A stretch of 61,695 nt of DNA from Herbiconiux sp. Its GTDB lineage: Bacteria; Actinomycetota; Actinomycetes; Actinomycetales; Microbacteriaceae. Shown here one piece after another: positions 41,310 to 56,541 of this stretch. Below the pieces are notes generated by a model, which had not been told where the DNA came from, did no database searches, and saw nothing but the letters and a program-made list of their open reading frames with translations. Each line of letters opens with the position of its first letter. Position 1 is the first letter of the stretch. The stretch lies in assembly GCF_023264855.1 (NCBI RefSeq), contig NZ_JAHFUW010000021.1, forward strand, positions 1 through 61,695, read 5' to 3'. The position numbers and the translations under genes were made by a program.

Positions 41310-42533
41310 ATGACAAGCTCGTCTTACCCAGTGGTCGCGGTTCTGCGCACCAGGCACACCGGGTACCTCCTGTCCACCTCGCTGCTGGGTCGTCTTCCCG
41401 GTGCGATGGCTGCGCTCGCGCTCGTGCAGCTCGTGCGCTCCACGAGCGGCGACTTCGGCTTCGCCGGGCTCATCACCGCGGTCTACGTGGTCGCCGGCGC
41501 GGTGGGGCAGCCGCTTCTCGGCCGGCTCATCGACCGCGTCGGGCAGGTCGCCGTTCTGGCCGTCAGCGGCATCCTGAGCTTTCTCGCCTTCACCGGCATG
41601 GCGCTGACGCTCGAACCGCTGCCGGGACTGGCGGTGGCGCTCGCCGCGGCCGCCGGGATGTTCACGCCGCCGCTCGAGCCGGCCCTCCGGGCCCTGTGGC
41701 CGCGACTCGTGGCCCCTGGCCCGCAGCTGAAGGCGGCGTTCAGTCTGGATGCCGGCGCCCAGGAGATCATCTTCATCCTCGGACCGCTGCTCACCGTCGT
41801 GGGCATCGCGGTCTTCGGTCCGGTGGGTAACCTGCTGTTCGCGGGTGGGCTCGGCCTGGTCGGCGCGCTCGCCTTCATCCTCAACCCTGCGCCGCGCGCG
41901 GCCTCGGCCCAGCGCCGCAGTGGAGGTGCCGCCCACCCCGGCGTCCGCTCGCCCATCCTCATTCCGGCTGTCGCGCGGGTCGCCGTGTTCACGTTCGGCA
42001 TCGGCGTGCCCGTCGGTGCGCTGACCATCGTCGCCACCGCCTCCGAGGCGGCTCGCATGAGCGAGGGACTCGCCGGGTGGATCCTCGCCGTGAACGCGGT
42101 CGGCGCCCTCGTCGGCGCCACCGTCGTCGGCATCCGTCCCCTCGGGTCCACACCGGCCCGCCTCCTCACCGTGTGCGGCGCGCTTCTCGCCCTCGGCTAC
42201 CTCCCGCTCGCCGCGACCGCGCTTCCCATGTGGGCGTACGTCGCCGCCGCCGGCATCTCCGGCCTGATGCTCCCGCCGACCCTGGGCCAGGTCTTCGAGC
42301 GGATCTCGCAACTCAGCCCCGCCGCCGCCCTCACCGAGGCGAACGGCTGGGTCGTCAGCGCCATGACCCTCGGAGTCGGTGCGGGCACCCTCGCGGCGGG
42401 CGCGGTCGTCGGTGCCGCCGGCACCTCCGCGGTGGCGTGGATCGTGCTCGGCGCCTCGGCCCTCACGGCACTCCTCTCCTTGATCGCGCTGCCGACCCGA
42501 ACTGCCGTCGTCGCGCCGACGCTCTCGGCGTAG
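41310..42533 (+). CDS. MFS transporter
   Basis: A 407-residue membrane protein with about twelve helices. The loop between helices 2 and 3 carries the MFS signature in the form GQPLLGRLIDRVGQ (residues about 69-82). The halves are joined by a basic loop (PRAASAQRRSGG). The substrate is unknown; members controlled by an adjacent GntR are often drug or metabolite exporters. ATG at 41310 follows directly on TAGCCT, with little or no leader. Confidence 0.9.
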   Translation: MTSSSYPVVAVLRTRHTGYLLSTSLLGRLPGAMAALALVQLVRSTSGDFGFAGLITAVYVVAGAVGQPLLGRLIDRVGQVAVLAVSGILSFLAFTGMALTLEPLPGLAVALAAAAGMFTPPLEPALRALWPRLVAPGPQLKAAFSLDAGAQEIIFILGPLLTVVGIAVFGPVGNLLFAGGLGLVGALAFILNPAPRAASAQRRSGGAAHPGVRSPILIPAVARVAVFTFGIGVPVGALTIVATASEAARMSEGLAGWILAVNAVGALVGATVVGIRPLGSTPARLLTVCGALLALGYLPLAATALPMWAYVAAAGISGLMLPPTLGQVFERISQLSPAAALTEANGWVVSAMTLGVGAGTLAAGAVVGAAGTSAVAWIVLGASALTALLSLIALPTRTAVVAPTLSA

Positions 42534-42587
42534 CCCTCGGGGAGTGAAGTCTCTGTCTTGCTTTGAGTCGCGCTGAGCTCCGGAGAC

Positions 42588-43435
42588 TCAGCCATCGGCG
42601 AGCTGATCTCCGATCCGCTCAACAGCCGAGTGGTGTTCCACCGCAACCGCTCTGCCATGCGCGGTGGCGATCCGCGCGGCGGCTCGATCGACCCCAGTGC
42701 GGCGTCCAGCGATGTGAGCGTTTCCGCCACGATGGCGGATGCTCGGGATCGCGAGAGCACGCTCCACGAGGCGACTTCGGCCAGCAGCCGCTCCACCGAT
42801 ATCCGGCGATGATCGAAGATCCCATCGATCGCCAAGGCGAGGTTCCAGTTGATGAGCCCGTCCCGAAACAGGTCGGGCATCGCGTCGTACACCAGGGAGA
42901 CCTCGGTTCCCGATGGGCCGATCGAGGCCGAGGGCCCGCACCAGGTCCTCCTGATGGTGGAGGAGGACGCGTTCCCCGTCGAGCTCACGGTCGAGTCGCT
43001 CGATGGCGAGGTGCGTGGTACGGCCGGCAGTGCGAATCCGGCTGTCCTAACGCGAAAGGTCGATTTCGCGGGCGAGGAGATGGCTGTGGCCGGGAATGTT
43101 GAACGGCTATCGTCGGGGATGCCTTGATCGCTGTCACCCTGGGCCTGCTTCAGCCGGGCGGAGAGCTGTGCGTCAGTGAGGGTCTCGTAGCGGTGAGAGG
43201 CCTTGGTGTCCTCGTCTGACGGGCGCAGAGTCACGGCGCCGGCGATCGATCCGCCGAATTCGCTCAGGAGCGCGAACTGATCGTCCTTGTCGATGCGGGG
43301 CGTGGCCGCCATCTGCTCTCGGTGACTGCCCTCGGGCACGTAGCCACCGAGAAAGTTGGAGACCCGATCGGATGCAGGTCGCCGCCCGGGCAGGGCCGTG
43401 AACGGTTCACTCAGCAGGACGTGCTGACGGTACCC
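42588..43435 (-). pseudogene. hipA-like kinase toxin remnant
   Basis: Pieces of a HipA protein are readable on the minus strand in more than one frame. N-terminal part: VSNFLGGYVPEG and LSEFGGSIAGAVTLRP (about 43190-43360), then GIPDDSR; here the frame shifts to FNIPGHSHLLAREIDLSR and stops. C-terminal part: LVYDAMPDLFRDGLINWNLA and FDHRRISVERLLAEVASW (about 42720-42915), ending after a second shift near 42588 (GDQLADG). The kinase core with ATP and Mg sites is missing between them. The gene is therefore decayed by deletion and frameshifts. Confidence 0.75.
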
Positions 43436-43439
43436 GCGA

Positions 43440-43589
43440 TGCATGTTCACCGTGAAACGGGTGCAACACCGTGTAATCACGCAAGGCGAGCCACTCGGCC
43501 AGGTCGGCCTGGGGCGGCCCGGCGTCTTCCCGGGCGGCTCGGATGACGGCGGCGACATCACATGGTTTCCTCGCAATCAGCGATGGCAC
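43440..43589 (-). pseudogene. hipB-like antitoxin remnant
   Basis: From 43589 the minus strand reads a short helix-turn-helix start: DVAAVIRAAREDAGPPQADLAEWLALRDYTVL. This fits the beginning of a HipB/XRE antitoxin, which is then lost. It lies immediately upstream of the hipA remnant in the normal hipBA order. Confidence 0.6.
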
Positions 43590-43683: not shown

Positions 43684-44718
43684 TCAGTCCTGCTGCGAGA
43701 ACGCGGAGTCGAATGACGCTTGCGGGGCTCTCCAGATCAGAGAGCGGACGAACTCGAGTGCCTCGGGAGCGCCATGCAGGCGGTCCATGCCGGCGTCCTC
43801 CCACTCGATCGAGATGGGGCCGGCGTAGCCGACGGAGCGCAGCGCGCGGAACGCGTCTTCCCAGGGCACATCGCCGCGGCCGGTCGAGACGAAGTCCCAG
43901 CCGCGCCGCGGGTCGCCCCAGGCGAGATGCGAGCCGAGCACGCCGGACCGGCCGTTGGCAGGCCGCAACCGCGTGTCCTTGCAGTCCACGTGGTAGACGC
44001 GGTCGCGGAAGTCGGAGATGAAGCCGACGCTGTCGATGCCCTGCCACATCATGTGCGAGGGGTCCCAGTTGAAGCCGAAGGCCGCGCGGTGGCCGATCGC
44101 CTCGAGCGTACGCACGCTCGTCCAGTAGTCGTAGGCGATCTCCGAGGGGTGCACCTCGTGCGCGAACCGTACGCCCTCGTCGTCGAAGACATCGAGGATC
44201 GGGTTCCAGCGGTCGGCGAAGTCCTCGTAGCCCTCGTCGATGACCGAGGCGGGGACGGGCGGGAACTGCGCCACGTACGGCCAGATCTTCGACCCGGTGA
44301 AGCCGACGACCGTGTCCGCCCCGAGTCGGCGGGCCACCCGCGCCGCCCGCTTCATGTCCTCCGCCGCCCGCTGCCTCACACCCTCCGCATCGCCGTCACC
44401 CCAGGTGTAGGGGCGCAAGATCGACTTGTGCCGGAAGTCGATCGGGTCGTCACAGACGGCCTGACCGGTGAGGTGGTTCGAGATCGCCCAGACCCTCAGC
44501 CCATGGTGCTCGAGCACGTCCAGGCGGCTCTGCAGGTAGGCGGGGTCTTCATCCGCACGCTTCAGATCCAGATGGTCTCCGGATGCCGCGATCTCCAGAC
44601 CGTCGTAGCCCCAGTCCGCGGCCAGCCGAGCAACCTCGTCGAAGGGGAGATCGGCCCACTGACCAGTGAACAGGGTGACCGGGGTCGAGTCGCCGTCGCT
44701 GCCGGATGTCGTCGTCAT
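43684..44718 (-). CDS. sugar phosphate isomerase/epimerase (xylose-isomerase-like barrel)
   Basis: A 344-residue TIM-barrel enzyme of the AP-endonuclease-2/xylose-isomerase-like class. Metal-ligand patterns are present: [10 protein letters not shown] early, [13 protein letters not shown] (Glu, His) in the middle, [12 protein letters not shown] (Asp, His), HVDCKDT, and [10 protein letters not shown] at the end. Such enzymes isomerise, epimerise or dehydrate sugars and often work with Gfo/Idh/MocA dehydrogenases that create a 3-keto sugar. It is the tenth and last gene of the operon, 9 bp after the preceding dehydrogenase. The C-terminus ends just before the decayed hipBA locus. Confidence 0.92.
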
Positions 44719-44727
44719 AGTTGCTCC

Positions 44728-45861
44728 TCAGGGAATGTGTGCGAACCCGGCCGGGCTCGGGGCGGTGTCGGGTGATGGGACGGTGACCCACTTCTCCGTC
44801 ACAGACGATTGGATCACGGCGTCGGTGAGTGAGGCGGCGCGGTAGCCGTCGGCGAAGGTCGGCAGGCCACTGGGCGAGGCGCCCTGCGCCGCGTCGTAGG
44901 CATCCGACATGAAGGCGTTGAACGCATCCTGATAGCCCTGTGGATGGCCGGCGGGAAGCAGGGACAGGCGCTGGCTGTCGGCGCTCCGCATTCCCGTGTT
45001 CCCGCTGATGATCGTGCTGTTCCGGTCGAGACCGCCGATCCAGAAGGAGTTCGGGTCTTCTTGGTTGAACTCGTAGGAGCCCTCCGTGCCGTCGAACGAG
45101 AACCACAGGCGGTTCTTGCGGCCGTGGGAGATCTGACTGAGCGTCAACGATCCTGCGGCGCCTCGATCGGTCTCGAACATCACCAGCGATGCGTCCTCGT
45201 TGCCGACGGGGCGATCCGATCCGCCCCGTCGGCTGTACGAGGTGATGAGGCGGGCGCTGACGCGCGTGATCCGGTGCCCGGTCACGAACTCCATGAGGTC
45301 GCACCAGTGCACGCCGATGTCGGCGAATGCCCGCGACGGGCCGCCGTCCTGCGAGCTGACCCGCCAGTTGGTGGCGGTGCGAGCGGCCAGCCAGTCCTGC
45401 AGGTACGAGCCGTGGATCAGGAGGAGCTCACCGGCGTCGCCCGCCGTGATCCGCTCACGAATCTCGTGGATCGCCGGGTAGTACCGGTAGACGAAGGGCA
45501 CCGCGGTCGTGACCTGGGCCCGATCCGCCGCGTCGTACAGGGAGCGCGCATCCGCCGCCGTCGTGGCGAGCGGCTTTTCGCAGACGACCGCCTTGGCCGC
45601 CTCGATGACGGCGCCGGCCTGCGCGAGGTGGAGGTTGTTCGGGGTGCAGATGTGCACGACGTCGACCTGGTCGGACTCGATCAACTCGCCGGGGGAGGCG
45701 AACCGGATCGGAATTCGCAGCCGTTCCGCGGCGCGGTCGGTGCTGGCAGCGGAGGAACTCACGATGCCGCGCACCTCGTGACCGGCGGCGCGCACCGCGC
45801 GGGCATGGACCTCGGCCATGAAGCCGCCACCGACGATGCCGGCTCTCAAGGGGGTGCTCAC
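44728..45861 (-). CDS. Gfo/Idh/MocA family oxidoreductase
   Basis: A 377-residue NAD(P)-dependent sugar dehydrogenase. The N-terminal Rossmann motif is AGIVGGGFMAEVHARAV (residues 6-22). The active-site Lys is in CEKPLATT (about residue 97), and the substrate-domain motif is FADIGVHWCDLMEF (the usual D-x-G-x-H-x-x-D). GTG at 45861 is chosen because the Rossmann fold begins directly after it and AAGG is upstream. It is paralogous to the next gene upstream. A 12-bp-stem hairpin separates the two. Confidence 0.93.
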   Translation of the reverse strand: MSTPLRAGIVGGGFMAEVHARAVRAAGHEVRGIVSSSAASTDRAAERLRIPIRFASPGELIESDQVDVVHICTPNNLHLAQAGAVIEAAKAVVCEKPLATTAADARSLYDAADRAQVTTAVPFVYRYYPAIHEIRERITAGDAGELLLIHGSYLQDWLAARTATNWRVSSQDGGPSRAFADIGVHWCDLMEFVTGHRITRVSARLITSYSRRGGSDRPVGNEDASLVMFETDRGAAGSLTLSQISHGRKNRLWFSFDGTEGSYEFNQEDPNSFWIGGLDRNSTIISGNTGMRSADSQRLSLLPAGHPQGYQDAFNAFMSDAYDAAQGASPSGLPTFADGYRAASLTDAVIQSSVTEKWVTVPSPDTAPSPAGFAHIP

Positions 45862-45893
45862 GTGTTGCTGCCTTCTCTTCGAGGGATGGGGGG

Positions 45894-45924
45894 CCGGGGT
45901 TCCCGCGTCGGGCGGGAACCCCGG
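45894..45924 (-). other. intercistronic hairpin between the two Gfo/Idh/MocA genes
   Basis: CCGGGGTTCCCG and CGGGAACCCCGG form a perfect 12-bp stem around a 7-nt loop. It has no T-run, so it could be an attenuator or an mRNA processing/stability element. Confidence 0.75.
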
Positions 45925-45943
45925 GAGGGCGCCGTCAGGTCGG

Positions 45944-47140
45944 TTACTCGCCCTGGAGGGTGCCGCTGGCCCGGTCGAGCTGCGGCACCGGCGTCCAGGC
46001 ACCGGTCTCGGCGCTGCGCAGGATGGCGTCTTCCACGAGCGCGACCTGGTAGCCGTCGCCGAAGTCGGGCCGCACGGAGCCGCCCTCCGCGATGGCGGTG
46101 AAGAAGTCGTGCGCCTCGATGATCTTCGTCTCGCCGTACCCGATACCGAGGGCCGGGATGGGCCACAATGCCGAACCGTTGGGGTGGTTCGGCCCGGTGT
46201 AGACCGTGCGGAACCCGCGCCGGTCGTCGCCGTCGGAGCGGAAGCACACCTGCAGCTCGTCGCGGTTCTCGTAGTTGAAGTAGATCGAGCCCTCGGTGCC
46301 GTGGATCTCGAGCGTGATGAAGTTGTTGCGGCCCCACGCGTTGCGGGTCGCCTCGAGAGACCCGACCGCGCCGTTGGCGAACTTGACCATGGTGAGCACC
46401 TCGTCGTCGACGTCGACGGCCTCCTTGGCCGCCCCGGCGTTCCGCGACGCGCCGAGCGAATCCGATCCGCCCGACTGCGCCGGCCGCTCGGCGATATAGG
46501 TCTTCGTCAATGCCGTCACATCGCTGATCGAGCCCACGAGGTAGTGGGCCAGATCGATGACGTGGCTCAGGATGTCGCCCACGGCGCCCGAGCCGGCGAC
46601 CGACTTCTTGAACCGCCAGGAGAGCGGGGAGTCGGGGTCGGCCGACCAGTCCTGCAGGTAGGTGCCGCGCAGGTTCAGGATCTCGCCGATCGCGCCCTCC
46701 TCGATGTACTTCTTGGCCAGCGCCACCGCCGGCGTGCGCCGGTAGTTGAAGGCCACCATGTTCACCGAGCCGGATTCGCGCGAGGCCGCATACATCCGTG
46801 CCGCGTCGTCGAGCGTGTGGGCGAGCGGCTTCTCGCAGATGACGTGCTTCCCGGCCGCGAGGGCCGCGATCGCCATCTCGGGGTGGAGGTTGTTCGGCGT
46901 CGCGATGTCGACGACGTCGATCTCCGGGTCGTCGACGATCGAGCGCCAGTCGCTCGTCGATCCGGTGAAACCGAACCGGGTGGCGGCATCCGCGGCGAGC
47001 TCGGGCGTGGCCTCGGCGATGGTGCGCTTCACGGGCAGGAACTCGGAGGGCCAGAAGAACATCGGGACGCCGGAGTAGGCCAGCGAGTGCGCCTTGCCCA
47101 TGAAGCCGCCTCCGATGAGGCCGACAGTGATTTCTTTCAT
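45944..47140 (-). CDS. Gfo/Idh/MocA family oxidoreductase
   Basis: A 398-residue NAD(P)-dependent dehydrogenase. The Rossmann motif is VGLIGGGFMGKAHSLAY (residues 6-22), the catalytic Lys is in VICEKPLAHT, and the substrate domain has GAVGDILSHVIDLAHYLVG with the D-x-x-x-H-x-x-D arrangement. The shared segment TYLQDWSADPDSPLSWR resembles the paralog's SYLQDWLAARTATNWR, pointing to an old duplication. ATG at 47140 follows AGAAAGAG. Both are expected to act on related intermediates, for example oxidation at one end of the pathway and reduction at the other. Confidence 0.93.
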   Translation of the reverse strand: MKEITVGLIGGGFMGKAHSLAYSGVPMFFWPSEFLPVKRTIAEATPELAADAATRFGFTGSTSDWRSIVDDPEIDVVDIATPNNLHPEMAIAALAAGKHVICEKPLAHTLDDAARMYAASRESGSVNMVAFNYRRTPAVALAKKYIEEGAIGEILNLRGTYLQDWSADPDSPLSWRFKKSVAGSGAVGDILSHVIDLAHYLVGSISDVTALTKTYIAERPAQSGGSDSLGASRNAGAAKEAVDVDDEVLTMVKFANGAVGSLEATRNAWGRNNFITLEIHGTEGSIYFNYENRDELQVCFRSDGDDRRGFRTVYTGPNHPNGSALWPIPALGIGYGETKIIEAHDFFTAIAEGGSVRPDFGDGYQVALVEDAILRSAETGAWTPVPQLDRASGTLQGE

Positions 47141-47157
47141 GATGATGCTCTTTCTGT

Positions 47158-48288
47158 TCAGCGTTCGGTGACGGTCGCCTGGGCGGCCTCGTTGGCCTCG
47201 CGGATGCGGTCGGTCATGTCGGTGTAGAACTCGTCCTGGGGGTCCTTGATACCCCAGCCGCGGCCGAGGTTCTCGATGTAGCCGCACCAGTGCCAGCCGA
47301 TGATCCACGGCTCGGCCATCACGGTGGCGAGGCCGTTCTTGTAGTCCTCGCCGCGCTCCGCCTGCGTCTGCATGTCGCTCGTGCGGTGCGGGTTCAGCTC
47401 GGTGGGAACCCAGTTGCCGATGTCGGCGATCACGACGGGCTTGCCCGTGAGCTCGTGCCAGCCGCGCAGGTCGGAGATCATCGTGGCGTACTCGGCGTCG
47501 GTCTTGCCGGTGAAGTACTGCACCGACAGCACGTCGACGAACGGCACCATCGCACGCAGCACCGCCTCGGGGATGCCCTTGTTGCCGTTGTAGCGGTCGC
47601 CCAGGATGAGGTGGTTCGGGTCGTAGCGGCGGATCGCCTCGGTGACGGTCTTGTAGTACTGCGTGGCCACCTCGAACAGCTTCGCGTCGTGCTCCTCCGG
47701 GGAGAGGCCCTCGAAGCCGGGCCAGAACCGGCCGGCGGCGTGCGGGAGCCAGGCGGGGATGTCGACCAGGAAGTACCCGATCAGGTTCTGGCTGTTCTTG
47801 TGGTCGGAGACCATCCGGCGGGCGACCCAGTCGGCGTACTTCTGGAAGTCCTCGCCGTACACGTCGCGGAACGCGGGGTGCCCGTTCCAGTCCTCGATCT
47901 CCTGCACCCGCAGCTGCACCACGTAGGGGAGGCCGGCGTCGAGCAGGTGTTCATCGGGCCAGGGGGAGGAGTGGCCCAGGTCGACCGGGTCGCCGAACCA
48001 GTCCAGCGCCTCGCCCCAGCCGCCGCTGATGTACTGACAGGTCCAGCCGATGGTGTTGAAGTCGAGGTCTTCGAGGTCGCGCACGACGCCCTCGGTCCAT
48101 CGCTTGCGGGAGCCGTACTTCTTCTCGAAGACCTCCGCGTTGTGCGGGTAGCGCAGGTCGCTGTCGTCGAGGTGGTTGAGGGCCAGCGACACGAAGGGCT
48201 CGCCCTGCGGGTCGACGAAGCTCCAGGCGCCGGACTCGTTCTGCCGGACGGTGAAGAAGGCGGTGGTGCCGGGTTCGGGGGTGCTCAT
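47158..48288 (-). CDS. agarase-like TIM-barrel glycoside hydrolase homolog
   Basis: A 376-residue protein without a signal peptide. The start FVDPQGEPFVSLALNHLDD and the later NLIGYFLVDIPAWLPHAAG and KPVVIADIGNW fit the loosely defined agarase/GH50-like barrel group. At the place where hydrolases of this clan carry an N-E pair it reads V-D-I-P, and no clear second Glu is seen, so classical retaining hydrolysis is doubtful. ATG at 48288 has GGAGAGA upstream. It sits in the operon between the permease and the dehydrogenases, so it acts inside the cell on imported sugar. Confidence 0.75.
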   Translation of the reverse strand: MSTPEPGTTAFFTVRQNESGAWSFVDPQGEPFVSLALNHLDDSDLRYPHNAEVFEKKYGSRKRWTEGVVRDLEDLDFNTIGWTCQYISGGWGEALDWFGDPVDLGHSSPWPDEHLLDAGLPYVVQLRVQEIEDWNGHPAFRDVYGEDFQKYADWVARRMVSDHKNSQNLIGYFLVDIPAWLPHAAGRFWPGFEGLSPEEHDAKLFEVATQYYKTVTEAIRRYDPNHLILGDRYNGNKGIPEAVLRAMVPFVDVLSVQYFTGKTDAEYATMISDLRGWHELTGKPVVIADIGNWVPTELNPHRTSDMQTQAERGEDYKNGLATVMAEPWIIGWHWCGYIENLGRGWGIKDPQDEFYTDMTDRIREANEAAQATVTER

Positions 48289-48314
48289 GGTGTTCTCTCC
48301 TTTGAAGACGGGGG

Positions 48315-49283
48315 TCACTTCTTGCTCAGCGAGACGGCGCCGATGATGATGATGCCCTTGATGATCTGCTGCACCGACGAGCTGACGCCCATCAGCACGA
48401 GTCCGTTGTTCATGATGCCGATGATCAACGATCCCGCCAGGGCGCCGATGACGGTACCCCGGCCGCCGAAGAGGCTGACTCCACCGAGGATCACGGCCGC
48501 GATGACGTCGAGCTCGAGGCCGCTGCCGATGTCGGGTCGGGCCGCGTGGGCGATGCCGGTGAACAGCAGCGATGCGAGTCCGACGAGGGCGCCGGTGATG
48601 ACGAAGCCGATGATGACCGTCTTCTTCGTCTTGACGCCGGTGAACCGGGCCGCCTGGGGGTTGCCGCCGGTCGCGAAGGTGCGCATCCCGAACACGCTCT
48701 TGTGCAGCACCAGGACGCCGAGGACGACGATGGCGATCGTCCAGACCACGGCGATCGGGATGCCCAGGATGCGGCTCTCGCCGAACACCTGGAAGTAGGT
48801 GGGGTTCGAGATGAGCACCGGACGGGTGTCGGTGATCAGCAGCGCGATCCCGCGGGCCACGCCGAGCATTCCCAAGGTGACCAGGAAGCTCGGTACCCCC
48901 AGTTTCGCCGTGATGAAGCCGTTCACGAAGCCGAAGACGATGCCGACCGCGACGGCCGCCAGCGCTCCCAGCAGCCAGAAGTTCGACACGTACTGCATCA
49001 CCATAGCGGCCGCCATCCCGCAGAGAGCGAAGACGCTGCCCACCGAGAGGTCGATCTGGCCGGTGATGATGACGAAGGTCATGCCCACGGCGACGATCGA
49101 CACGGTGGCGGTCTGCCGGCCGATGTTGGCGAAGTTGTCGGGCGTCAGGAAGTACGGCGAGGCGATCGAGAAGAAGACGATCAACGCGACGAGCGCGATG
49201 TAGACGAAGTACTCCCGGATGAAGTCGCCGGCCGAGCGGCCGCGCCACCTGGGCCGGCTGACACTACTGGTTGTCGCGCTCAT
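48315..49283 (-). CDS. ABC transporter permease, RbsC/BPD_transp_2 type
   Basis: A 322-residue permease of the CUT2 class with eight to ten helices. Typical segments are GQIDLSVGSVFALCGMAAA, KLGVPSFLVTLGMLGVARG, ATGGNPQAARFTGVKT and VILGGVSLFGGRGTVIGAL. ATG at 49283 overlaps the ATPase gene end by 20 bp and has GGGTGG upstream; an in-frame TTG earlier falls within the ribosome site. It works with the two-domain ATPase. It is the only permease in an operon with two binding proteins. Confidence 0.93.
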   Translation of the reverse strand: MSATTSSVSRPRWRGRSAGDFIREYFVYIALVALIVFFSIASPYFLTPDNFANIGRQTATVSIVAVGMTFVIITGQIDLSVGSVFALCGMAAAMVMQYVSNFWLLGALAAVAVGIVFGFVNGFITAKLGVPSFLVTLGMLGVARGIALLITDTRPVLISNPTYFQVFGESRILGIPIAVVWTIAIVVLGVLVLHKSVFGMRTFATGGNPQAARFTGVKTKKTVIIGFVITGALVGLASLLFTGIAHAARPDIGSGLELDVIAAVILGGVSLFGGRGTVIGALAGSLIIGIMNNGLVLMGVSSSVQQIIKGIIIIGAVSLSKK

Positions 49284-50832
49284 GGCTCGCAACCACCCTT
49301 TCGTTGAGTTTGGAATAGATGTATTGATCGGTGACGCTCTCGGTCACCGGTTCCGGTTCGCTCATCCCGGTCGAGGTCATGAACGAGATCTCGTCGCACA
49401 GCTCGTGCAGCTCGACGAAGTCGGAGGAGACCACGACGATGGCCGAGCCCTCCTCGGCGAAGCGGCGGATGACCCGGTAGATCTCCTGCCTGGCCCGCAC
49501 GTCGACCCCCTGCGTGGGCTCGTCGAGCAGCAGCACCTGCATGCCCGGCTGCAGCCATTTCGCGAAGACGACCTTCTGCTGGTTGCCTCCCGACAGCGAC
49601 TGCACCGGACTCGTGATCGACGCCGTCTTGATCTGCAGCGTGTCGACCAGCCCCTTCACGAGCGCGACCGCCGACCGGTTGTCGACGAACCCGCCCTTGC
49701 TCACGGCCTTGTAGTGCGCCAGCGAGAGGTTGCGCTGGATCGACTGCTGCAGCACGACCCCCGAGCGGTGCCGGTCTTCGGGCACCAGGGCCACGCCGGC
49801 CGCCAGGGCCTGCCACGGATGCGAGAACCGCACCACCTTGCCGTCGAGCGTGATGCGGCCGGCGGTGCTCCTGCGCACTCCGGCGATCGTCTCGAGCAGC
49901 TCGGTGCGGCCCGATCCGATCAGCCCCGCGATCCCGACGATGCGTCCGGCGCCGGCCGAGATGCTGATGTCGGAGAACCGGTCGCCGGTGAGGCCGGTGA
50001 CCTCGAGCTTCGGCCCGGAGCGGTCGGTGACGACCGTCTCCGGATGGGCGAACTCGTCGAAGCGCCTCTTCGAGGGCTCCGGCACGTCGTCGTCGGCGCC
50101 GGTGATCTCACGCACCAGGGTCGACATCTCCATGCCGGCCACGTCGGAGGTGAGCACACGCTGGCCGTCGCGGATGATCGTGACCCGGTCCGCCAGCTCG
50201 AACACCTCGGTGAGGCGGTGCGTGACGTAGATGATGCCCACGCCCGACTTCTGGATGTCCCGGATGCTCTCGAACAGCAACAGCTGATCGCCCTTGGTGA
50301 GGGTCGAGGTCGGTTCGTCCAGCACCAGCACCCGCGCATCCCGGTGCACGGCCTTCGCGATCTCCACCAGCTGGCGGGAGGCGACCGAGAGGTTCTCCAC
50401 GCTCTCCTCCGGCGAGAGGTGCAGGCCGAGCCGCTCGATCAGCTCGGAGGCGATCCGGTTCTGCTCCTTGGTCTTCACCAGGCCGAGCGCATTTCGCAGC
50501 TCGTTGCCCAGGAAGATGTTCTTCGCCACGGAGAGGCCGGGGATGAGGCTCAGTTCCTGGAACACTGTGGCGATGTCAGAAGAACGTCGCTCGCGACCGT
50601 CGACCTGCACCGAGCCCTCGTCCTGCGGTTGCACGCCGTCGAGGATCTTGATGAGTGTCGACTTGCCGGCGCCGTTCGGGCCCAGCAGCGCGTGCACCTC
50701 GCCGGCGCGCAGGTCGAAGTCCACATCCTTCAGGGCGTAGACCCCGTTGAAGGCCTTGCTGACCCCTCGGGCGACGAGGAGCGGTTCCTCCGGTGATGCC
50801 GGCGGGGGTGCCGACTGGGTGTCCGTGGTCAC
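49264..50832 (-). CDS. ABC transporter ATPase, two-domain CUT2 type (RbsA/XylG-like)
   Basis: A 522-residue protein of two fused ATPase domains. Domain 1 (about residues 18-250) has Walker A GPNGAGKST, signature ENLSVASRQ and Walker B VLVLDEPTST. Domain 2 (about 270-510) has a degenerate Walker A (GLIGSGRTE), signature SLSGGNQQ and Walker B LLLDEPTQGVD, which is the normal asymmetry for this family. The start is GTG. It powers the CUT2 importer with the following permease. Confidence 0.94.
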   Translation of the reverse strand: MTTDTQSAPPPASPEEPLLVARGVSKAFNGVYALKDVDFDLRAGEVHALLGPNGAGKSTLIKILDGVQPQDEGSVQVDGRERRSSDIATVFQELSLIPGLSVAKNIFLGNELRNALGLVKTKEQNRIASELIERLGLHLSPEESVENLSVASRQLVEIAKAVHRDARVLVLDEPTSTLTKGDQLLLFESIRDIQKSGVGIIYVTHRLTEVFELADRVTIIRDGQRVLTSDVAGMEMSTLVREITGADDDVPEPSKRRFDEFAHPETVVTDRSGPKLEVTGLTGDRFSDISISAGAGRIVGIAGLIGSGRTELLETIAGVRRSTAGRITLDGKVVRFSHPWQALAAGVALVPEDRHRSGVVLQQSIQRNLSLAHYKAVSKGGFVDNRSAVALVKGLVDTLQIKTASITSPVQSLSGGNQQKVVFAKWLQPGMQVLLLDEPTQGVDVRARQEIYRVIRRFAEEGSAIVVVSSDFVELHELCDEISFMTSTGMSEPEPVTESVTDQYIYSKLNERVVASHERDNQ

Positions 50833-50892
50833 GTCTTCCTCTCCTTTCTCGGTGTGCGGGTGTTCGTCTCGATGAGCGGATGCCGGCGCACG

Positions 50893-52053
50893 CTAGCCGC
50901 AGAGCTTCGAGGCGTCGCAGGCGGCGACAACCTCGGCCGGGGCATCCGTGTGGAAGATCGACTGGTAGCTCTCGAGCAGGTTCGACGGGGTGACCGCCAC
51001 GGAGGGCAGGGCCACCCAGGCGGGCGTCTCGGCCCCGATCAGCGCCTTGGACGCGGCCAGCGCCTCGGCGACTCCCTGGCTGTAGGGCTCCTGGGCGCCG
51101 ACGGCCTTGATGTAGCCACCGCTGGCCATGTCGACGGCCACCTCGGTGCCGAGGTCGATCGTGGTGATCGGAACGGTGACTCCGGCGTTGCGGAGCGATG
51201 CCACCGACTGCATGGCCGGAGAGTCCCAGATCACGAAGAGTCCGTCGACGTCCGGGTTGGCCGTCATGAAGTTCGCGGTCACGGAGCCGACGCCGTTGGT
51301 GTCGGTGAACCCCACGTCTTTGATGGTCACGTCGGGGCGGTTCTCGGCGAACCACTGCTTCACCCGCAGCGTGCGCTGGTTGGTGGTGTAGAAGTCCACC
51401 GCGTAGTCGACGATGCCGGCCACGCCGTCCTGCGGGATGTACTCCGAGAGTGCCGCGGCGGCGATCTGCCCGTTGCCCTGGTTGTCGGGCGCGATCACGG
51501 CCTGGTAGTCGGTGGGGTAGACCAGGCCGTTGGCCGGCATGTGGATGAAGATCAGCTTGATCCCGGCGGCGGCGACCTTCTTGTAGGTCTCGGCCGTCGC
51601 CACGTCGTCGGTGGGGATGCTGATGATCGCGTCGGGGCGCTGGGTGATGAGGTTCTCCAGGTCGGAGATCTGCTGCTGCACGTCGAACTTGGCGTCGGTC
51701 ACGCCGATGACGTTCACGCCGAGGTCGTCGAGGGTGTCCTGGATGCCCTCCACCGTGAGTCGCGACCAGTCGATGTCCATCGTGTTCATCGAGATGCCCA
51801 CGGAGAAGTCGCCTGCGGCGACTTTGGCCTTCTCATCGTCGGTGAGCTGGAGGTCGTCGACCGTCACCGGCACCTCGCCGTTCTTGCCCTGGCCGACGAT
51901 CTCGGCGGGGGTGATCGCCGCCGCATCGACGACGACCGCCTCGCCACCGGCGCCCGTGGAGGCGGGGGAGTCCGACGTGCAGCCGGTGACGAGGAGGGTG
52001 AGGGAGGCGGCCAGGGCCGTCGTGGCCAGCAGGCCTTTCATGCTGCGTTTCAT
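50893..52053 (-). CDS. sugar-binding lipoprotein, CUT2 type (copy 2)
   Basis: A 386-residue lipoprotein (signal MKRSMKGLLATTALAASLTLL, lipobox LVTGC). The mature part is a type-1 periplasmic-binding fold: FSVGISMNTMDIDWSRLT, FDVQQQISDLENLITQRPDA and IAPDNQGNG. It is clearly paralogous to the binding protein at 53938-55098 along its whole length, including a matching pair of Cys residues at the C-terminus (ACDASKLCG). It lies just ahead of the ATPase gene. The two copies may bind different sugars, or the alpha and beta forms of one. Confidence 0.92.
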   Translation of the reverse strand: MKRSMKGLLATTALAASLTLLVTGCTSDSPASTGAGGEAVVVDAAAITPAEIVGQGKNGEVPVTVDDLQLTDDEKAKVAAGDFSVGISMNTMDIDWSRLTVEGIQDTLDDLGVNVIGVTDAKFDVQQQISDLENLITQRPDAIISIPTDDVATAETYKKVAAAGIKLIFIHMPANGLVYPTDYQAVIAPDNQGNGQIAAAALSEYIPQDGVAGIVDYAVDFYTTNQRTLRVKQWFAENRPDVTIKDVGFTDTNGVGSVTANFMTANPDVDGLFVIWDSPAMQSVASLRNAGVTVPITTIDLGTEVAVDMASGGYIKAVGAQEPYSQGVAEALAASKALIGAETPAWVALPSVAVTPSNLLESYQSIFHTDAPAEVVAACDASKLCG

Positions 52054-52117
52054 CGGGTTCAGCTTTCTGTGGTGAGGAGGTGCAGAGGGGGAGGAAAGGA
52101 GGAGATGGCGCTCGGGG

Positions 52118-52936
52118 TCAGCCCAGGAGCGTCGTGAGGTAGTCCAGGCTGATGCGCGCGGCATCCTTCGGGTCGCCGTCGTAGTAGTCGAGCTCGACCA
52201 TCAGCCAGCTGTCGTAGCCGGCATCGCGGATGGCCCGGAGGATCTCGGGGAAGTCGAGGTCGCCCTCACCGAGCGGCAGGAACCGCAGGGTCTTCCGGTC
52301 GAGGTCTTTGAGGTGCACGTGGGCGAGGCGGTCGGCGTAGCGATCGATGATCGCCGCCGGGTCGCCGCCGCCCGCGGCCAGGTGCGCCGTGTCGGGGCAG
52401 AACGCGATGGTGGAGATCTCCATCAGCTCGGCCAGCGCATCCGGACCCTCGACGAGCGTGCCGAGGTGCGGGTGGTAGCTGGCCTCCAGGCCGTGATCGG
52501 CCGCCACCCGGGCGCCCCGGTCGAGGCCCTCGGCGAGCCGCTTGATGTCGTCGGGGTGGGCGCCGCCGGCGCGCTGCGCTCCGCCACCGAACACGAGCCG
52601 CTTCGCGCCGAACTTCTGCGCGAGCTCGGCCGAGCGCTCGATCTTGCTGAACTCGTCCTCCAGGATGTCGGGGAAGACGAAGTTCGCACCGGTGTAGACG
52701 CTCACCAGCTCGAGCCCCGAGGTACGCAGGAGGGAATGGAACTCCTGCGGGTTCTCCTCGAAGTCGAGCAGGTTGCCGTCGAACACCTCGGTGCCGGTGT
52801 AGCCGACCTCGGCGATGTCGCGGAACGCCGCCGCGGTGTCGCCGTTGGTGCGGTAGAACAGGTCCTTGACGCTCGTGACACCGCCGGGGGTGCCGGTGAC
52901 GCCGCCCCAGGTGATGGTCGGGTATCCCAGTTTCAT
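52118..52936 (-). CDS. sugar phosphate isomerase/epimerase (IolE/xylose-isomerase-like)
   Basis: A 272-residue TIM barrel of the xylose-isomerase-like clan. Metal and active-site patterns are YTGTEVFDGNLLDF, ASYHPHLGTLVEG (His), AFCPDTAHLAAGGG (Asp, His), AHVHLKDLDR and LMVELDYYDG (Glu, Asp). ATG at 52936 has AGGAGAG at good spacing; an ATG 24 nt upstream lacks one. It is the third gene of the ROK-associated operon. IolE-like members dehydrate 2-keto-myo-inositol, and others epimerise 3-keto sugars; the exact reaction is open. Confidence 0.9.
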   Translation of the reverse strand: MKLGYPTITWGGVTGTPGGVTSVKDLFYRTNGDTAAAFRDIAEVGYTGTEVFDGNLLDFEENPQEFHSLLRTSGLELVSVYTGANFVFPDILEDEFSKIERSAELAQKFGAKRLVFGGGAQRAGGAHPDDIKRLAEGLDRGARVAADHGLEASYHPHLGTLVEGPDALAELMEISTIAFCPDTAHLAAGGGDPAAIIDRYADRLAHVHLKDLDRKTLRFLPLGEGDLDFPEILRAIRDAGYDSWLMVELDYYDGDPKDAARISLDYLTTLLG

Positions 52937-52985
52937 GGTCGTGCTCTCCTGTGCAGTCATTCGTCGTGTGCGGTCATTCGTCGGA

Positions 52986-53873
52986 TCATTCCCCGCGGCC
53001 GAGGAAGTCGAGGTAGGCGGCCGCCAGCGCTTCGGGATCCTCCTCGGCCAGTTGGTGGCCCCAGGGGAGGATCACGGCGCGCACGTCTTCGGCGACCTCG
53101 CGCATCTGGCGCTCGTTGTCGTCGCCGATGAAGTACTCGCTGCCGACGGCCAGCACCGGCATCGTCAGCTTCGTCTTGGCCGACTCCTTGTTCTGATCGG
53201 CGTCGTCGAGGGTGGCGCGGTAGATCTCGAACATGCTCCGCAGGCCGCCCGGCGAGGAGTAGCAGCGCACGTACTCGTCCAGCGCATCCGGTGTGATCGC
53301 CTGCGGGTTGTGCGTCTCGTGCTTCATGAAGTAGTTGAAGTACTCCTTCTCCCGGCCTGTGATCAGCAGTTCGGGGAAGTCGGGCACGCTGTAGAAGTTG
53401 ATGTGCCAGAGCCACACGTAGGTGCTCACGTTCTCGCGGGTGAGGAAGGAGTAGTCCTCGAGGCCGAAGCCGGGCAGGATCATCTCCTGGTAGATCAGCT
53501 TCTTGACGCGCTCGGGGTACTGGGCCGCCACCTGGTAGGCGGTCGAGGCCCCCCAGTCCTCGCCGGCGAGGTAGAACTGCTCGTAGCCGAGGTGGGTGGC
53601 CAGCTGGGCGATATCTTCTGCCATGTTCTTCATGTCGAAGCCGCCCGCCGGGTGCTCGGAGTCGCCGAGACCGCGCAGGTCGGGAGCGATGACGGTGTAG
53701 TACGGCGTGAGGAGGGGGATGACCCGGCGCCAGTGGTACGAGGTCTTCGGCACACCGTGCAGCAGGAAGAGGGGCTCGCCCTCGCCCGCGACGGAGTAGT
53801 GGAGTCGGACTCCGTTGACGAGTGCGCGTCCGTGCTTGGCGGGCACTCCGTTGTGGTCGGCGATGATGTCCAC
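52986..53873 (-). CDS. alpha/beta hydrolase, epoxide hydrolase/haloalkane dehalogenase-like
   Basis: A 295-residue hydrolase in which the nucleophile position is Asp: AGEDWGAST (Asp near residue 107), the mark of epoxide hydrolases and dehalogenases rather than esterases. The oxyanion segment HGVPKTSYHW and the late His in LPWGHQLAEEDPE complete the set. GTG at 53873 has AAAGGAG eight nt upstream. It lies between a binding protein and an isomerase gene in a sugar operon, an unusual company for this family. It may open an anhydro- or epoxy-type sugar derivative; that is speculation from context. Confidence 0.88.
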   Translation of the reverse strand: MDIIADHNGVPAKHGRALVNGVRLHYSVAGEGEPLFLLHGVPKTSYHWRRVIPLLTPYYTVIAPDLRGLGDSEHPAGGFDMKNMAEDIAQLATHLGYEQFYLAGEDWGASTAYQVAAQYPERVKKLIYQEMILPGFGLEDYSFLTRENVSTYVWLWHINFYSVPDFPELLITGREKEYFNYFMKHETHNPQAITPDALDEYVRCYSSPGGLRSMFEIYRATLDDADQNKESAKTKLTMPVLAVGSEYFIGDDNERQMREVAEDVRAVILPWGHQLAEEDPEALAAAYLDFLGRGE

Positions 53874-53937
53874 GTCGGTTTCTCCTTTGATCTCAGTGGG
53901 TGTCGGTGGTTGTCGAGCTGTCGGGGATGTCGGTCGG

Positions 53938-55098
53938 TCAGTTGCAGCCGTCGGTGGCGTCGCAGATGTCGACGAGCTGCTGCGGGGCGTCCTGGTGGTA
54001 GACCTGCTGCCAGGCCTCCAGCACGTTGTTCTGCAGCACCGGAACGGCGGGGAAGGCGAGCCAGTTGGGCACGGAGCCGCCGAGCAGCACCTTGACGGCC
54101 ATGTCGGCCTCGGCCAGACCCTGGTCGTAGGGCACCTGGGCGCTGAGGGCCTTGATGTTGCCGCCGCCGGCCAGGTCGGCCGCCACATCGGAGGCGATGT
54201 TCACGGCGGTGATCGGGATGTCCTTGCCCTGCGACCGCAGTGCCTGGTCGATCGCGACCGCGGGAACCTCCCACTCGGTGAACATGCCCTGGATGTCGGG
54301 GTTGGCCGTGAGGAAGTCGGTGGCGTCCTGTCCCGACTTGCCCGCGTCGAGGAACTCGGCGGTCTTGATCGTGATGTCGGGCCGGTTGGCCTCCATCCAG
54401 TCGACGAAGCCCTTCATCCGCTCCTTGGTGACGAAGAAGTCCACGCCGAAGTCGAGCACACCCACCGTGCCTCCGTCGGGGATGTACTCGGCCAGCGCCT
54501 CGGCACAGACCGCGCCGTTGCCCTGATTGTCGGAGGACACCATGCCCTGGTAGTCGGCGGGGTACTGCAGGCCCTTCGGGACGTTGTCCATCATGATCAG
54601 CTTGATCCCGGCGGCGCCGATCTTGCGGTACGCCTCCGCGGTCGCGGTGTCGTCGACGGGGATGCTGATGATGGCATCCGGCTTCAGCTGGATCATGTTC
54701 TCGATGCCCGAGATCTGGGTCTGCACGTCGAACGCCGGGTCGACCACGCCGATGACCTCGGCGTCGTACTCGGCCAGGCGGTCGGTGATGGCCCGCACCT
54801 GCTCGGTCGACCACTCGATGTCCATGGTCTGCATGACGATGCCGACGCGGTACTTCTCCTGCTTGGCCTGGGCGACCTCGGCGTCGGTGAGGTCGATCTC
54901 GTCGAGGCTGCCGGACTTCACGCCGTCCGGGCCCAGACCGACGATTGCTGGCGGAACCAGGTCGGCGGCCGTCATGCTCGCGAGCGGGTTGCCCGTCGAG
55001 CCGGCGGAGTCGGACGGCGCGGAGTCGGACGTGCATCCGGCTAGCGCCAGGGCAGTGGTGATCAGGGCGGCCAGGCTGATGGCGGCGGAGCGTTTCAT
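53938..55098 (-). CDS. sugar-binding lipoprotein, CUT2 type (copy 1)
   Basis: A 386-residue lipoprotein (signal MKRSAAISLAALITTALALAGC, lipobox LALAGC). The type-1 binding fold shows YRVGIVMQTMDIEWSTEQV, FDVQTQISGIENMIQLKPDA and VSSDNQGNG. It is the same length as, and aligns end to end with, the copy at 50893-52053. The C-terminal ICDATDGCN carries the same two Cys, probably a disulfide outside the membrane. It is the first gene of the ten-gene operon, transcribed from an AT-rich region shared with the ROK regulator gene. Confidence 0.92.
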   Translation of the reverse strand: MKRSAAISLAALITTALALAGCTSDSAPSDSAGSTGNPLASMTAADLVPPAIVGLGPDGVKSGSLDEIDLTDAEVAQAKQEKYRVGIVMQTMDIEWSTEQVRAITDRLAEYDAEVIGVVDPAFDVQTQISGIENMIQLKPDAIISIPVDDTATAEAYRKIGAAGIKLIMMDNVPKGLQYPADYQGMVSSDNQGNGAVCAEALAEYIPDGGTVGVLDFGVDFFVTKERMKGFVDWMEANRPDITIKTAEFLDAGKSGQDATDFLTANPDIQGMFTEWEVPAVAIDQALRSQGKDIPITAVNIASDVAADLAGGGNIKALSAQVPYDQGLAEADMAVKVLLGGSVPNWLAFPAVPVLQNNVLEAWQQVYHQDAPQQLVDICDATDGCN

Positions 55099-55323: not shown

Positions 55324-56541
55324 ATGGGTGGGTGGAAGGCCTCGGCCGTGTACGACGCGGGAGATTTCTTCCAGATCTTCCGCGACGGCGTTCCGCGAAC
55401 GCGCAACGAACTCGCGTCGATGACGGGTCTCTCCCGGCCGACCGTGATCTCGCGGATCGACGACCTGATGGGCCTCGACCTCGTCGCCGCGGTCTCGGAC
55501 GCCGTCTCGACCGGGGGCCGGCCGTCGGCGCGGATCGCGTTCAACCCCTCGGGTCGTCTGGTGGTGTCGGCGGATGTCGGCGCCACACACATCCACGTCG
55601 GGATCTGCGATCTCTCCGGGAGCGTCTTGGCCGACGACTCCGTCGCGATGCTGGTCAGCCAAGGGCCGCGCCCCGTGCTCCAGGTGGTCGTCGAGCTCGC
55701 GACGTCACTGCTCGAATCGCTGCGGCGGGACTCCGCCGAGGTCGTCGCCATGGGTGTCGGCCTGCCGGGCCCGGTCGACCACGCGACCGGTCGCCCCACG
55801 AGCCCGCCGATCATGCCCGGCTGGGACGGCTTCGACGTGCCGGCCCACCTGCGGCAGAGCTTCGACGTACCGGTTCTGGTCGACAACGACGTGAACATCA
55901 TGGCCCTCGGCGAGCGTGCGCTCAGCTGGCCGGATGCCGACGACCTCATCTTCGTGAAGGCCGCCACCGGTATCGGCGCCGGCATCATCTCCGACGGCAC
56001 GCTCCGCCGGGGCGCGAAGGGTGGGGCCGGAGACGTCGGCCACGTCTTCGTGCAGCGCGCTGCGGGGCTGGCCTGCCGATGCGGCAAGACCGGGTGCCTC
56101 GAGGCGCTCGCGGGCACCCCGGCCATCGTGCGCGCCCTGCGCGACGACGGTCTCGAGCTCGAGACCGGAGCCGAGGTGGTCGACCTCGTGCGGCAGGGAA
56201 ACCTCGACGCCGCCCGCCACGTGCGGGAGTCGGGACGGGCCATCGGCGAGATGCTGAACGCCTGCGTCAGCATCCTGAACCCCTCGATCATCGTCGTCGG
56301 CGGCCAGCTCGCCCAATCGGGTGAGAGCCTGCTCGCCGGTATCCGCGAGGAGGTCTACTCGCACTCCAGCCCGCTCGCCACGCGGGATCTCCAGATCGCC
56401 CAGTCGCGGTCGGGATCGAACGCGGGCATCCTCGGCGCGGGGATCCTCGCGATCGAGCACGTGCTGTCGGCCGCGGAGATCAACGCCGTCGTGCAGGACC
56501 GCCAGAGCAGTCGTGCGGAGGGGTCCGCCGCCCTGCAGTGA
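55324..56541 (+). CDS. ROK-family transcriptional regulator
   Basis: A 405-residue repressor. The N-terminal winged helix is at about residues 18-70 (RTRNELASMTGLSRPTVISRIDDL). The rest is an ROK sugar-kinase-like fold with VVSADVGATHIHVGICDLSG as the phosphate-binding region, GVGLPGPVDHATG, and the zinc motif CRCGKTGCLEAL (residues about 257-268). ATG at 55324 follows GGGAGG. It is divergent from the ten-gene operon, which it most likely represses in the absence of its sugar. Confidence 0.93.
   Translation: MGGWKASAVYDAGDFFQIFRDGVPRTRNELASMTGLSRPTVISRIDDLMGLDLVAAVSDAVSTGGRPSARIAFNPSGRLVVSADVGATHIHVGICDLSGSVLADDSVAMLVSQGPRPVLQVVVELATSLLESLRRDSAEVVAMGVGLPGPVDHATGRPTSPPIMPGWDGFDVPAHLRQSFDVPVLVDNDVNIMALGERALSWPDADDLIFVKAATGIGAGIISDGTLRRGAKGGAGDVGHVFVQRAAGLACRCGKTGCLEALAGTPAIVRALRDDGLELETGAEVVDLVRQGNLDAARHVRESGRAIGEMLNACVSILNPSIIVVGGQLAQSGESLLAGIREEVYSHSSPLATRDLQIAQSRSGSNAGILGAGILAIEHVLSAAEINAVVQDRQSSRAEGSAALQ

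Follow-up and report, generated by a model that had tools for sequence, protein, structure and literature searches.

Levoglucosan genes of a Herbiconiux operon are accompanied by an importer of another lineage and two putative feeder pairs

We analysed a stretch of 61,695 nucleotides of Herbiconiux sp. DNA (contig NZ_JAHFUW010000021.1; the whole stretch is hereafter called the window), in which ten co-directional minus-strand genes, running from position 55098 to 43684, form a sugar operon. Its core is very probably the known pathway for levoglucosan, a sugar formed when wood burns, which smoke and pyrolysis oil contain together with other sugars. The other genes encode an ATP-binding cassette (ABC) importer that departs in its binding proteins, permease and ATPase from the type usual for levoglucosan, an alpha/beta hydrolase resembling Cif-type epoxide hydrolases (ABH), and a single-domain protein with the fold of glycoside hydrolase family 50 (GH50), here called AGA. 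On balance, we lean towards a levoglucosan operon with an importer of another lineage and two feeder pairs, each made of a sugar binding protein (SBP) and an enzyme: SBP1 with ABH, and SBP2 with AGA.

The genes are separated by gaps of -20 to 82 bases and encode, in order of transcription, SBP1 (53938..55098), ABH (52986..53873), a TIM barrel of 280 residues that is the LgdB1 candidate (52118..52960), SBP2 (50893..52053), a sugar ABC ATPase with two ATPase domains (two ABC_tran stretches; 49264..50832), a permease (BPD_transp_2, E 1e-44; 48315..49283), AGA (47158..48288), LgdA (45944..47140), an LgdC candidate (44728..45861) and a TIM barrel of 344 residues that is the LgdB3 candidate (43684..44718); the ABH, ATPase and LgdC genes start with GTG. 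Pfam assigns nine of the ten proteins, AGA having no match in Pfam or NCBIfam. A preliminary description made from the sequence alone had already noted this ten-gene operon, with two paralogous binding proteins for one permease and one ATPase, two Gfo/Idh/MocA dehydrogenases, two xylose-isomerase-like barrels, an epoxide-hydrolase-like protein and an agarase-like protein without obvious catalytic Glu. The gene coordinates, the Pfam domains and the comparisons given below agree with it on each point, and the search for conserved gene order that it proposed found eight of the ten genes in identical order at L060, a locus in another genome of the family, so the order is not due to chance.

Gene 8 is firmly identified by its sequence as LgdA, levoglucosan 3-dehydrogenase. 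It scores 697.1 bits against the NCBIfam equivalog NF052479 (levoglucosan dehydrogenase), above the curated cut-off of 650, and its match to the solved structure of the enzyme, 6a3f, has E 1.9e-192 (642.8 bits); it is single-copy in its genome, where the next matches are the LgdC candidate at 35% and another at 37%. Glu at 103 and His at 193, which PMC10066097 proposes as the catalytic residues of LgdA, are present in at least 49 of 50 aligned rows. The same source proposes E95 and H185 for LgdC. The LgdC candidate, which has Gfo/Idh/MocA domains, carries Glu and His at these two numbers, as do at least 25 of 26 rows; the match is one of numbering, in an alignment without a characterised LgdC. 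For LgdB1 that source gives a PF01261 domain, a length of about 275 residues and a place near LgdA, and the LgdB1 candidate has the domain, 280 residues and the location; it was compared on these features, with no characterised LgdB1 sequence. The LgdB3 candidate, compared likewise with no reference LgdB3 sequence, is assigned because of its PF01261 fold, its expected position and its actinobacterial range in the loci seen. We consider these three assignments probable.

How common these genes are was judged in 53 LgdA loci, of which 26 come from named genomes (28 among the matches listed, with L031 at 30% and L032 at 25% dropped before counting) and 27 are clusters, the window included, from 26 genomes found in a search of 396 genomes of the family. 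The loci are not independent (the SBPs of L005 and L092 are identical), contig ends truncate some of them, L089 and L109 included, and all gene counts depend on the identity and coverage limits chosen. An LgdB1-type gene occurs in 49 of the 53, including the window, an LgdC-type gene at at least 44% identity in 27, and an LgdB3-type gene at at least 60% in 20. Copies 67-85% identical to the LgdB3 candidate lie in 19 of the 52 other lgd loci, and against the second barrels of the four lgd loci compared from Bacillaceae it shows 27-28% identity; row L101 of the LgdB3 tree is a spurious weak match. Elsewhere in the Herbiconiux genome, contig C89 (L003 11097-13245) bears a second LgdB3-like barrel (82%) and, next to it, an LgdC-like gene (46%). 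Their neighbours are a rhamnosidase-type gene, other glycan genes and an IclR-like gene (by eye), and not LgdA; such a hydratase-reductase pair may serve other 3-keto-glycoside routes too.

The reactions of the four core enzymes are predicted from the published biochemistry of homologues. Purified LgdA, LgdB1, LgdB2 and LgdC jointly convert levoglucosan to glucose by C3 oxidation, beta-elimination, hydration and reduction (PMC7676230), and LgdB3 barrels have been reported near 71 of 265 LgdA genes, in Actinobacteria and Proteobacteria, with LgdB2 near 57 and never both (PMC10066097). In the window, LgdA would oxidise its substrate at C3, LgdB1 (a putative 3-keto-levoglucosan beta-eliminase) would open the 1,6-anhydro bridge by beta-elimination, LgdB3 (the proposed 2-hydroxy-3-keto-glucal hydratase) would hydrate the LgdB1 product, and LgdC (a putative 3-keto-glucose reductase, or glucose 3-dehydrogenase) would reduce 3-keto-glucose to glucose. 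The keto-sugar route of oxidation, rearrangement and reduction that the preliminary description had suggested fits this pathway. Its view that the gene set is no described pathway fails for the core and stands for ABH, AGA and the doubled binding protein, which leaves its overall interpretation partly supported.

Two other identities for the core were rejected. The inositol models IolG, IolE and IolO all score far below their cut-offs. For C-glycoside cleavage, DgpA (7xr9) matches LgdA at E 1e-23 only, far more weakly than 6a3f does, and no operon gene is small enough (the smallest product has 280 residues) to encode a DgpB-type partner, which is a small protein; no search aimed at DgpB was made.

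The case for feeder pairs begins with the importer. SBP1 and SBP2 (Peripla_BP_4, E 4.5e-35 and 7.9e-32; each with a lipobox by eye) are 48% identical over 381 residues, and the operon has a single permease and a single ATPase. Taking at least 50% identity as the limit, SBP1-type proteins occur at four of the 53 LgdA loci, all four with ABH, and SBP2-type proteins at three, all three with AGA. In a tree of 60 SBPs these seven proteins form one clade (support 96/87), to which two proteins from rhizobial loci attach (95/80); the usual levoglucosan SBPs lie in a separate group of 50 rows (87/94). The permeases fall into three lineages, one, that of SBP2 and AGA, with the window, L060 and L059, one with L088 and L094, and the usual ones, in a quick tree that, like those of LgdA and the archaeal SBPs below, carries SH-aLRT support only; in these quick trees the rows of L119, L120 and L041 are very long branches. 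A special form of LgdA in clusters with feeder pairs was considered and found no support, as the LgdAs of L059, L088 and L094 nest among those of usual clusters in the quick tree.

Gene order shows how the pairs combine. L059 reads LgdB1, SBP2, ATPase, permease, AGA, LgdA, LgdC, LgdB3, and L094 reads LgdB1, SBP1, ATPase, permease, ABH, LgdA, LgdC, LgdB3; the two differ by a swap in the same slots, SBP2 and AGA in one, SBP1 and ABH in the other. The window has the L059 arrangement with SBP1-ABH placed in front, and L060 has the same without LgdC and LgdB3, which its genome carries in a second lgd cluster, L102. The genome G623 also keeps a separate usual lgd cluster. Two SBPs on one importer would be explained if SBP1 had arrived without a permease and ATPase of its own.

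L093 and L094, in two genomes, amount to a natural experiment. Their LgdA (97% identical), LgdB1 (93%), LgdB3 (94%), ROK (94%) and LgdC (83%) are close, whereas SBP, ATPase and permease are 41%, 42% and 46% identical and ABH is found in L094 only. The importer and ABH switched together while the levoglucosan enzymes were retained. Since the LgdA proteins of L059, L060, L094 and L111 likewise exceed the NF052479 cut-off, the core very likely still handles the same sugar, and the new parts would act upstream of it.

ABH matches the solved structure 7jqz at E 8.7e-58 and the soluble epoxide hydrolase 7ac0 at E 4.6e-54. D106, E130, H157, Y218 and H273 are invariant in all 15 aligned relatives; D106 falls on a position occupied by D in 7jqx and changed to S in the variant 7jqy, as expected of the aspartate nucleophile of Cif-type epoxide hydrolases, and H157 and Y218 occupy what we take to be the positions of their ring-opening His and Tyr pair. 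A fluoroacetate dehalogenase was considered and rejected: in those enzymes Arg follows the nucleophile, and ABH has Trp there. When the five intact hydrolase clusters are compared, ABH is better conserved than any other protein, and it is 94% identical to the L060 copy, yet 61% of four-fold sites differ; with silent sites diverged as much as those of its neighbours, recent transfer does not account for this identity. At E 1e-60 or better, ABH occurs in seven of the 396 family genomes, and all seven have LgdA, itself present in 26 of 396 (chance about 2e-9, relatedness uncorrected). We favour as its substrate, with less assurance than the feeder role itself, an anhydrosugar epoxide, for example 2,3-anhydro-mannosan; opening this by hydrolysis should yield levoglucosan. 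2,3-anhydro-D-mannosan is tabulated among pyrolysis products (PMC8960302, PMC5895764).

AGA has a GH50-type barrel and lacks the two catalytic glutamates of that family, which in Aga50D are Glu534 and Glu695 (PMC11079163). Aligned with a Catenovulum agarase-type enzyme, it has I177 in place of the acid/base Glu and D289 in place of the nucleophile. Neither position is Glu in any of the nine AGA relatives aligned, a set that includes near-identical Cryobacterium-type rows; the acid/base position is I, A, V or L, and D176 and D289 are invariant in all nine and kept in three more from Streptomyces and haloarchaea (12 of 12). Strong AGA matches were found in five family genomes, all five with LgdA. 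In a class-level sample of 394 genomes, strong AGA occurs in five, ABH (E 1e-80) in six and both in three, for which chance is about 2e-5, again uncorrected for relatedness. The chance values were computed on 396 genomes, the AGA sample being 398, and they omit weak AGA matches in G652 (family set), G144 and G209 (class set).

In the explanation that we favour, SBP1 and SBP2 would capture different small sugar derivatives and use the same permease and ATPase, the shared importer having arisen when the SBP1-ABH pair was added to a pre-existing SBP2-AGA operon. In the cytoplasm, ABH and AGA would each turn their own compound into levoglucosan or another compound acceptable to LgdA. What the sequences show is the identity of the genes, their order and, with the exceptions given below, the joint variation of binding protein and enzyme; that the pairs act as feeders, that both SBPs use the one permease and what the compounds are is inference.

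Several observations weigh against this explanation. Of eight ABH loci, four show no SBP1-type gene, three of six AGA loci show no SBP2-type gene, and the pairing is drawn from few independent clusters. In the Cryobacterium-type loci L011, L110 and L111, ABH and AGA follow LgdB3, and the importer next to them is a usual one; whole-genome searches at E 1e-40 found no SBP1-type gene in G336 (L110) and G722 (L111), a usual SBP matching at 38-39% only, and no SBP match in G670 (L089), a draft that is 89% complete in 270 contigs. The pairing with a dedicated SBP is therefore a tendency and not a rule. The ABH gene of G336 (L110 16260-17138; about 82% identical) is interrupted by an internal TAG. 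Around the distant AGA relatives of L042 and L043 no sugar operon was recognised, which makes AGA a weaker marker of the operon. After AGA in L011 (18352-18483) and L111 (17718-17849) we noticed a short stretch resembling the LgdB3 gene (12% of the gene, 73-75%), which might mean that recombination placed the ABH-AGA pair there; a weaker LgdB3-like stretch lies in C. aureum (L012 16309-16488), which has no ABH-AGA pair.

Relatives outside lgd operons bear on the same question. G068, one of the three genomes with both genes and outside the family, has AGA and ABH on different contigs; its AGA adjoins SBP, ATPase, permease, LgdC-like (57%), Zn-dehydrogenase and TIM barrel genes, with no LgdA in the stretch fetched, and the stretches fetched around ABH in G068, G384, G123 and G330, all outside the family, hold no lgd gene. 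We also inspected eight of 16 plasmid records with ABH relatives and four of six with AGA matches. On a Streptomyces plasmid, AGA (48%) is accompanied by genes for an SBP, an ATPase, a permease and SDR proteins, with no LgdA in the stretch fetched. A mobilizable Cryobacterium arcticum plasmid (L119 6481-16728) carries a relative of the operon that lacks LgdA, consisting of ROK, LgdC-like, ABH (57%), SBP, ATPase, permease, Zn-dehydrogenase, TIM barrel and LgdB3-like (76%) genes. Two haloarchaeal plasmid islands even have the two-SBP layout: Halalkalicoccus jeotgali plasmid 2 (L128 11986-24078) bears two SBPs, one permease, one ATPase, an AGA-like gene (31% over 43% of the query) and ABH (54%), and a Salinigranum plasmid (L129 4598-11668) bears two such SBPs, one permease and ATPase, an AGA-like gene (27%) and parts of another ABC system, ABH being absent from that record; neither has LgdA. 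The four archaeal SBPs are sister to the window SBP clade (SH-aLRT 98). The SBP/ABH/AGA module therefore extends beyond the levoglucosan operon, which makes it less certain that a levoglucosan derivative has to be its substrate.

ABH relatives are also found in other settings. Those of Hymenobacter and Priestia have unrelated neighbours, and that of Agrobacterium lies about 5 kb from sugar ABC genes. In L121 (384-17378) and L127 (741-10862), ABH relatives (50-52%) lie near glycerol-3-phosphate dehydrogenase and FGGY kinase genes, with an aquaporin gene in L127, hinting at a small polyol or glycidol-like substrate for this subgroup.

The plainest alternative is an ordinary levoglucosan operon in which both SBPs bind levoglucosan, perhaps with differing affinity, and ABH and AGA are passengers or serve minor repair or detoxification of co-imported reactive pyrolysis products. 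The complete core pathway, the three Cryobacterium-type clusters with ABH and AGA beside a usual importer, the broken ABH copy and the free variation of LgdA neighbourhoods (of 265, LgdB1 is the sole barrel of the three in 126 and LgdC is present in 151; PMC10066097) all agree with this. Two findings speak against it, the high conservation of ABH in its clusters and the switch of importer lineage along with the accessory enzyme between loci whose LgdA is still 97% identical, and we think this alternative rather unlikely. The cassettes might instead feed a cyclitol, or a methylated or glycosylated one, with LgdA and the TIM barrels acting as in inositol catabolism. In keeping with this, the LgdB1 candidate is IolE-like, the solved scyllo-inositol dehydrogenase matches LgdA at E 2e-73, and a Zn-dehydrogenase is encoded on the haloarchaeal islands that hold AGA-like genes and a pair of related SBPs; that of L128 matches L-threonine 3-dehydrogenase best and then IolM, below cut-off, and the L128 TIM barrel matches IolO best, also below cut-off. 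The scores of LgdA in the window, L059, L060, L094 and L111 above the levoglucosan equivalog cut-off, with the inositol dehydrogenase models far below theirs, make cyclitols improbable.

For AGA alone, a true glycosidase that splits, for example, cellobiosan into glucose and levoglucosan, with an aspartate pair replacing the two glutamates, would suit the operon as a levoglucosan-yielding feeder and would explain the GH50 fold and the retention of D176 and D289. The aliphatic residue at the acid/base position argues against it, as does the importer, because importers with this type of binding protein mostly carry monosaccharides; we regard this activity as very improbable. Returning to the feeder pairs, they can be read more boldly: ABH, AGA and the SBP1/SBP2 clade would be a mobile, cross-domain feeder module for anhydrosugars other than levoglucosan or for related bicyclic sugars, ABH opening a sugar epoxide (e.g. 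2,3-anhydro-mannosan) to give levoglucosan, AGA representing a glutamate-less GH50-fold family with a new two-aspartate chemistry, and the same module, its two SBPs sharing one permease, feeding other dehydrogenase-plus-TIM-barrel routes on haloarchaeal plasmids. Taken as a whole, this extension is unlikely.

The surroundings of the operon say something of its origin. Its G+C content is 67.4% against 69.3% in the remainder of the window, and other genomes of the genus gave no match to AGA (ten listed) and none to LgdA at the limit used (nine listed); this suggests, without proving, that the operon came from outside the genus. A divergent ROK-family regulator gene (55324..56541, plus strand; PF00480, E 2.6e-53) starts 225 bases upstream, and such a gene adjoins many lgd clusters. 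Just downstream, at 42200-43576 on the minus strand, an open frame that matches the HipA N-terminal domain (E 7.7e-8) resembles a worn hipA-type gene.

If the feeder roles are real, these cassettes point to genes for the use of other anhydrosugars, of relevance to carbon turnover after fire and to bio-oil upgrading, and a GH50-fold enzyme with a conserved aspartate pair in place of the glutamates would be a new activity in a well-studied clan. The near-identical operons L093 and L094, differing in importer and hydrolase, make the substrate question directly testable. None of the papers seen describes ABH, AGA or a doubled binding protein in an lgd operon, and we found none joining levoglucosan with epoxide hydrolase and agarase, or Cryobacterium with lgdA; the words epoxide, agarase and Cryobacterium are absent from the main text of PMC10066097.

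ABH retains the Asp nucleophile, His and Tyr positions of the Cif-type epoxide hydrolases (7jqz, 7jqx, 3kd2), from which it differs in its link to sugar importers and lgd genes and in the Glu that precedes its nucleophile (GED) in 15 of 15 aligned relatives. Unlike the GH50 beta-agarases Aga50D and BpGH50, AGA has both catalytic glutamates replaced, no agarase CBM domain and no secretion signal by eye, and it sits in a monosaccharide-type operon. The 3-keto-glycoside routes of the BT_2158 and BT_2159 families also use Gfo/Idh/MocA dehydrogenases, named by NCBIfam as glycoside/disaccharide 3-dehydrogenases, but the window dehydrogenases match them weakly, far below cut-off. The lgdA-lgdB1-lgdB2-lgdC cluster of Bacillus smithii S-2701M (PMC7676230) has in common with the window LgdA, LgdB1-type and LgdC-type genes, an ABC importer, a regulator and the expected order of chemistry; in the window an LgdB3-type barrel takes the expected place of LgdB2 and there are two binding proteins, and the figure legend for the B. 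smithii cluster lists no hydrolase or GH50-fold gene. The LgdA-LgdB1-LgdB3-LgdC clusters of Paenarthrobacter and other Actinobacteria (PMC10066097) have a core gene set, with LgdB3, like that of LgdA and the three candidates here, and ROK-type regulators among their neighbours; the importer lineage of the window differs from those of the Arthrobacter and Paenarthrobacter loci compared. The pathway is thus already known; the arrangement is new.

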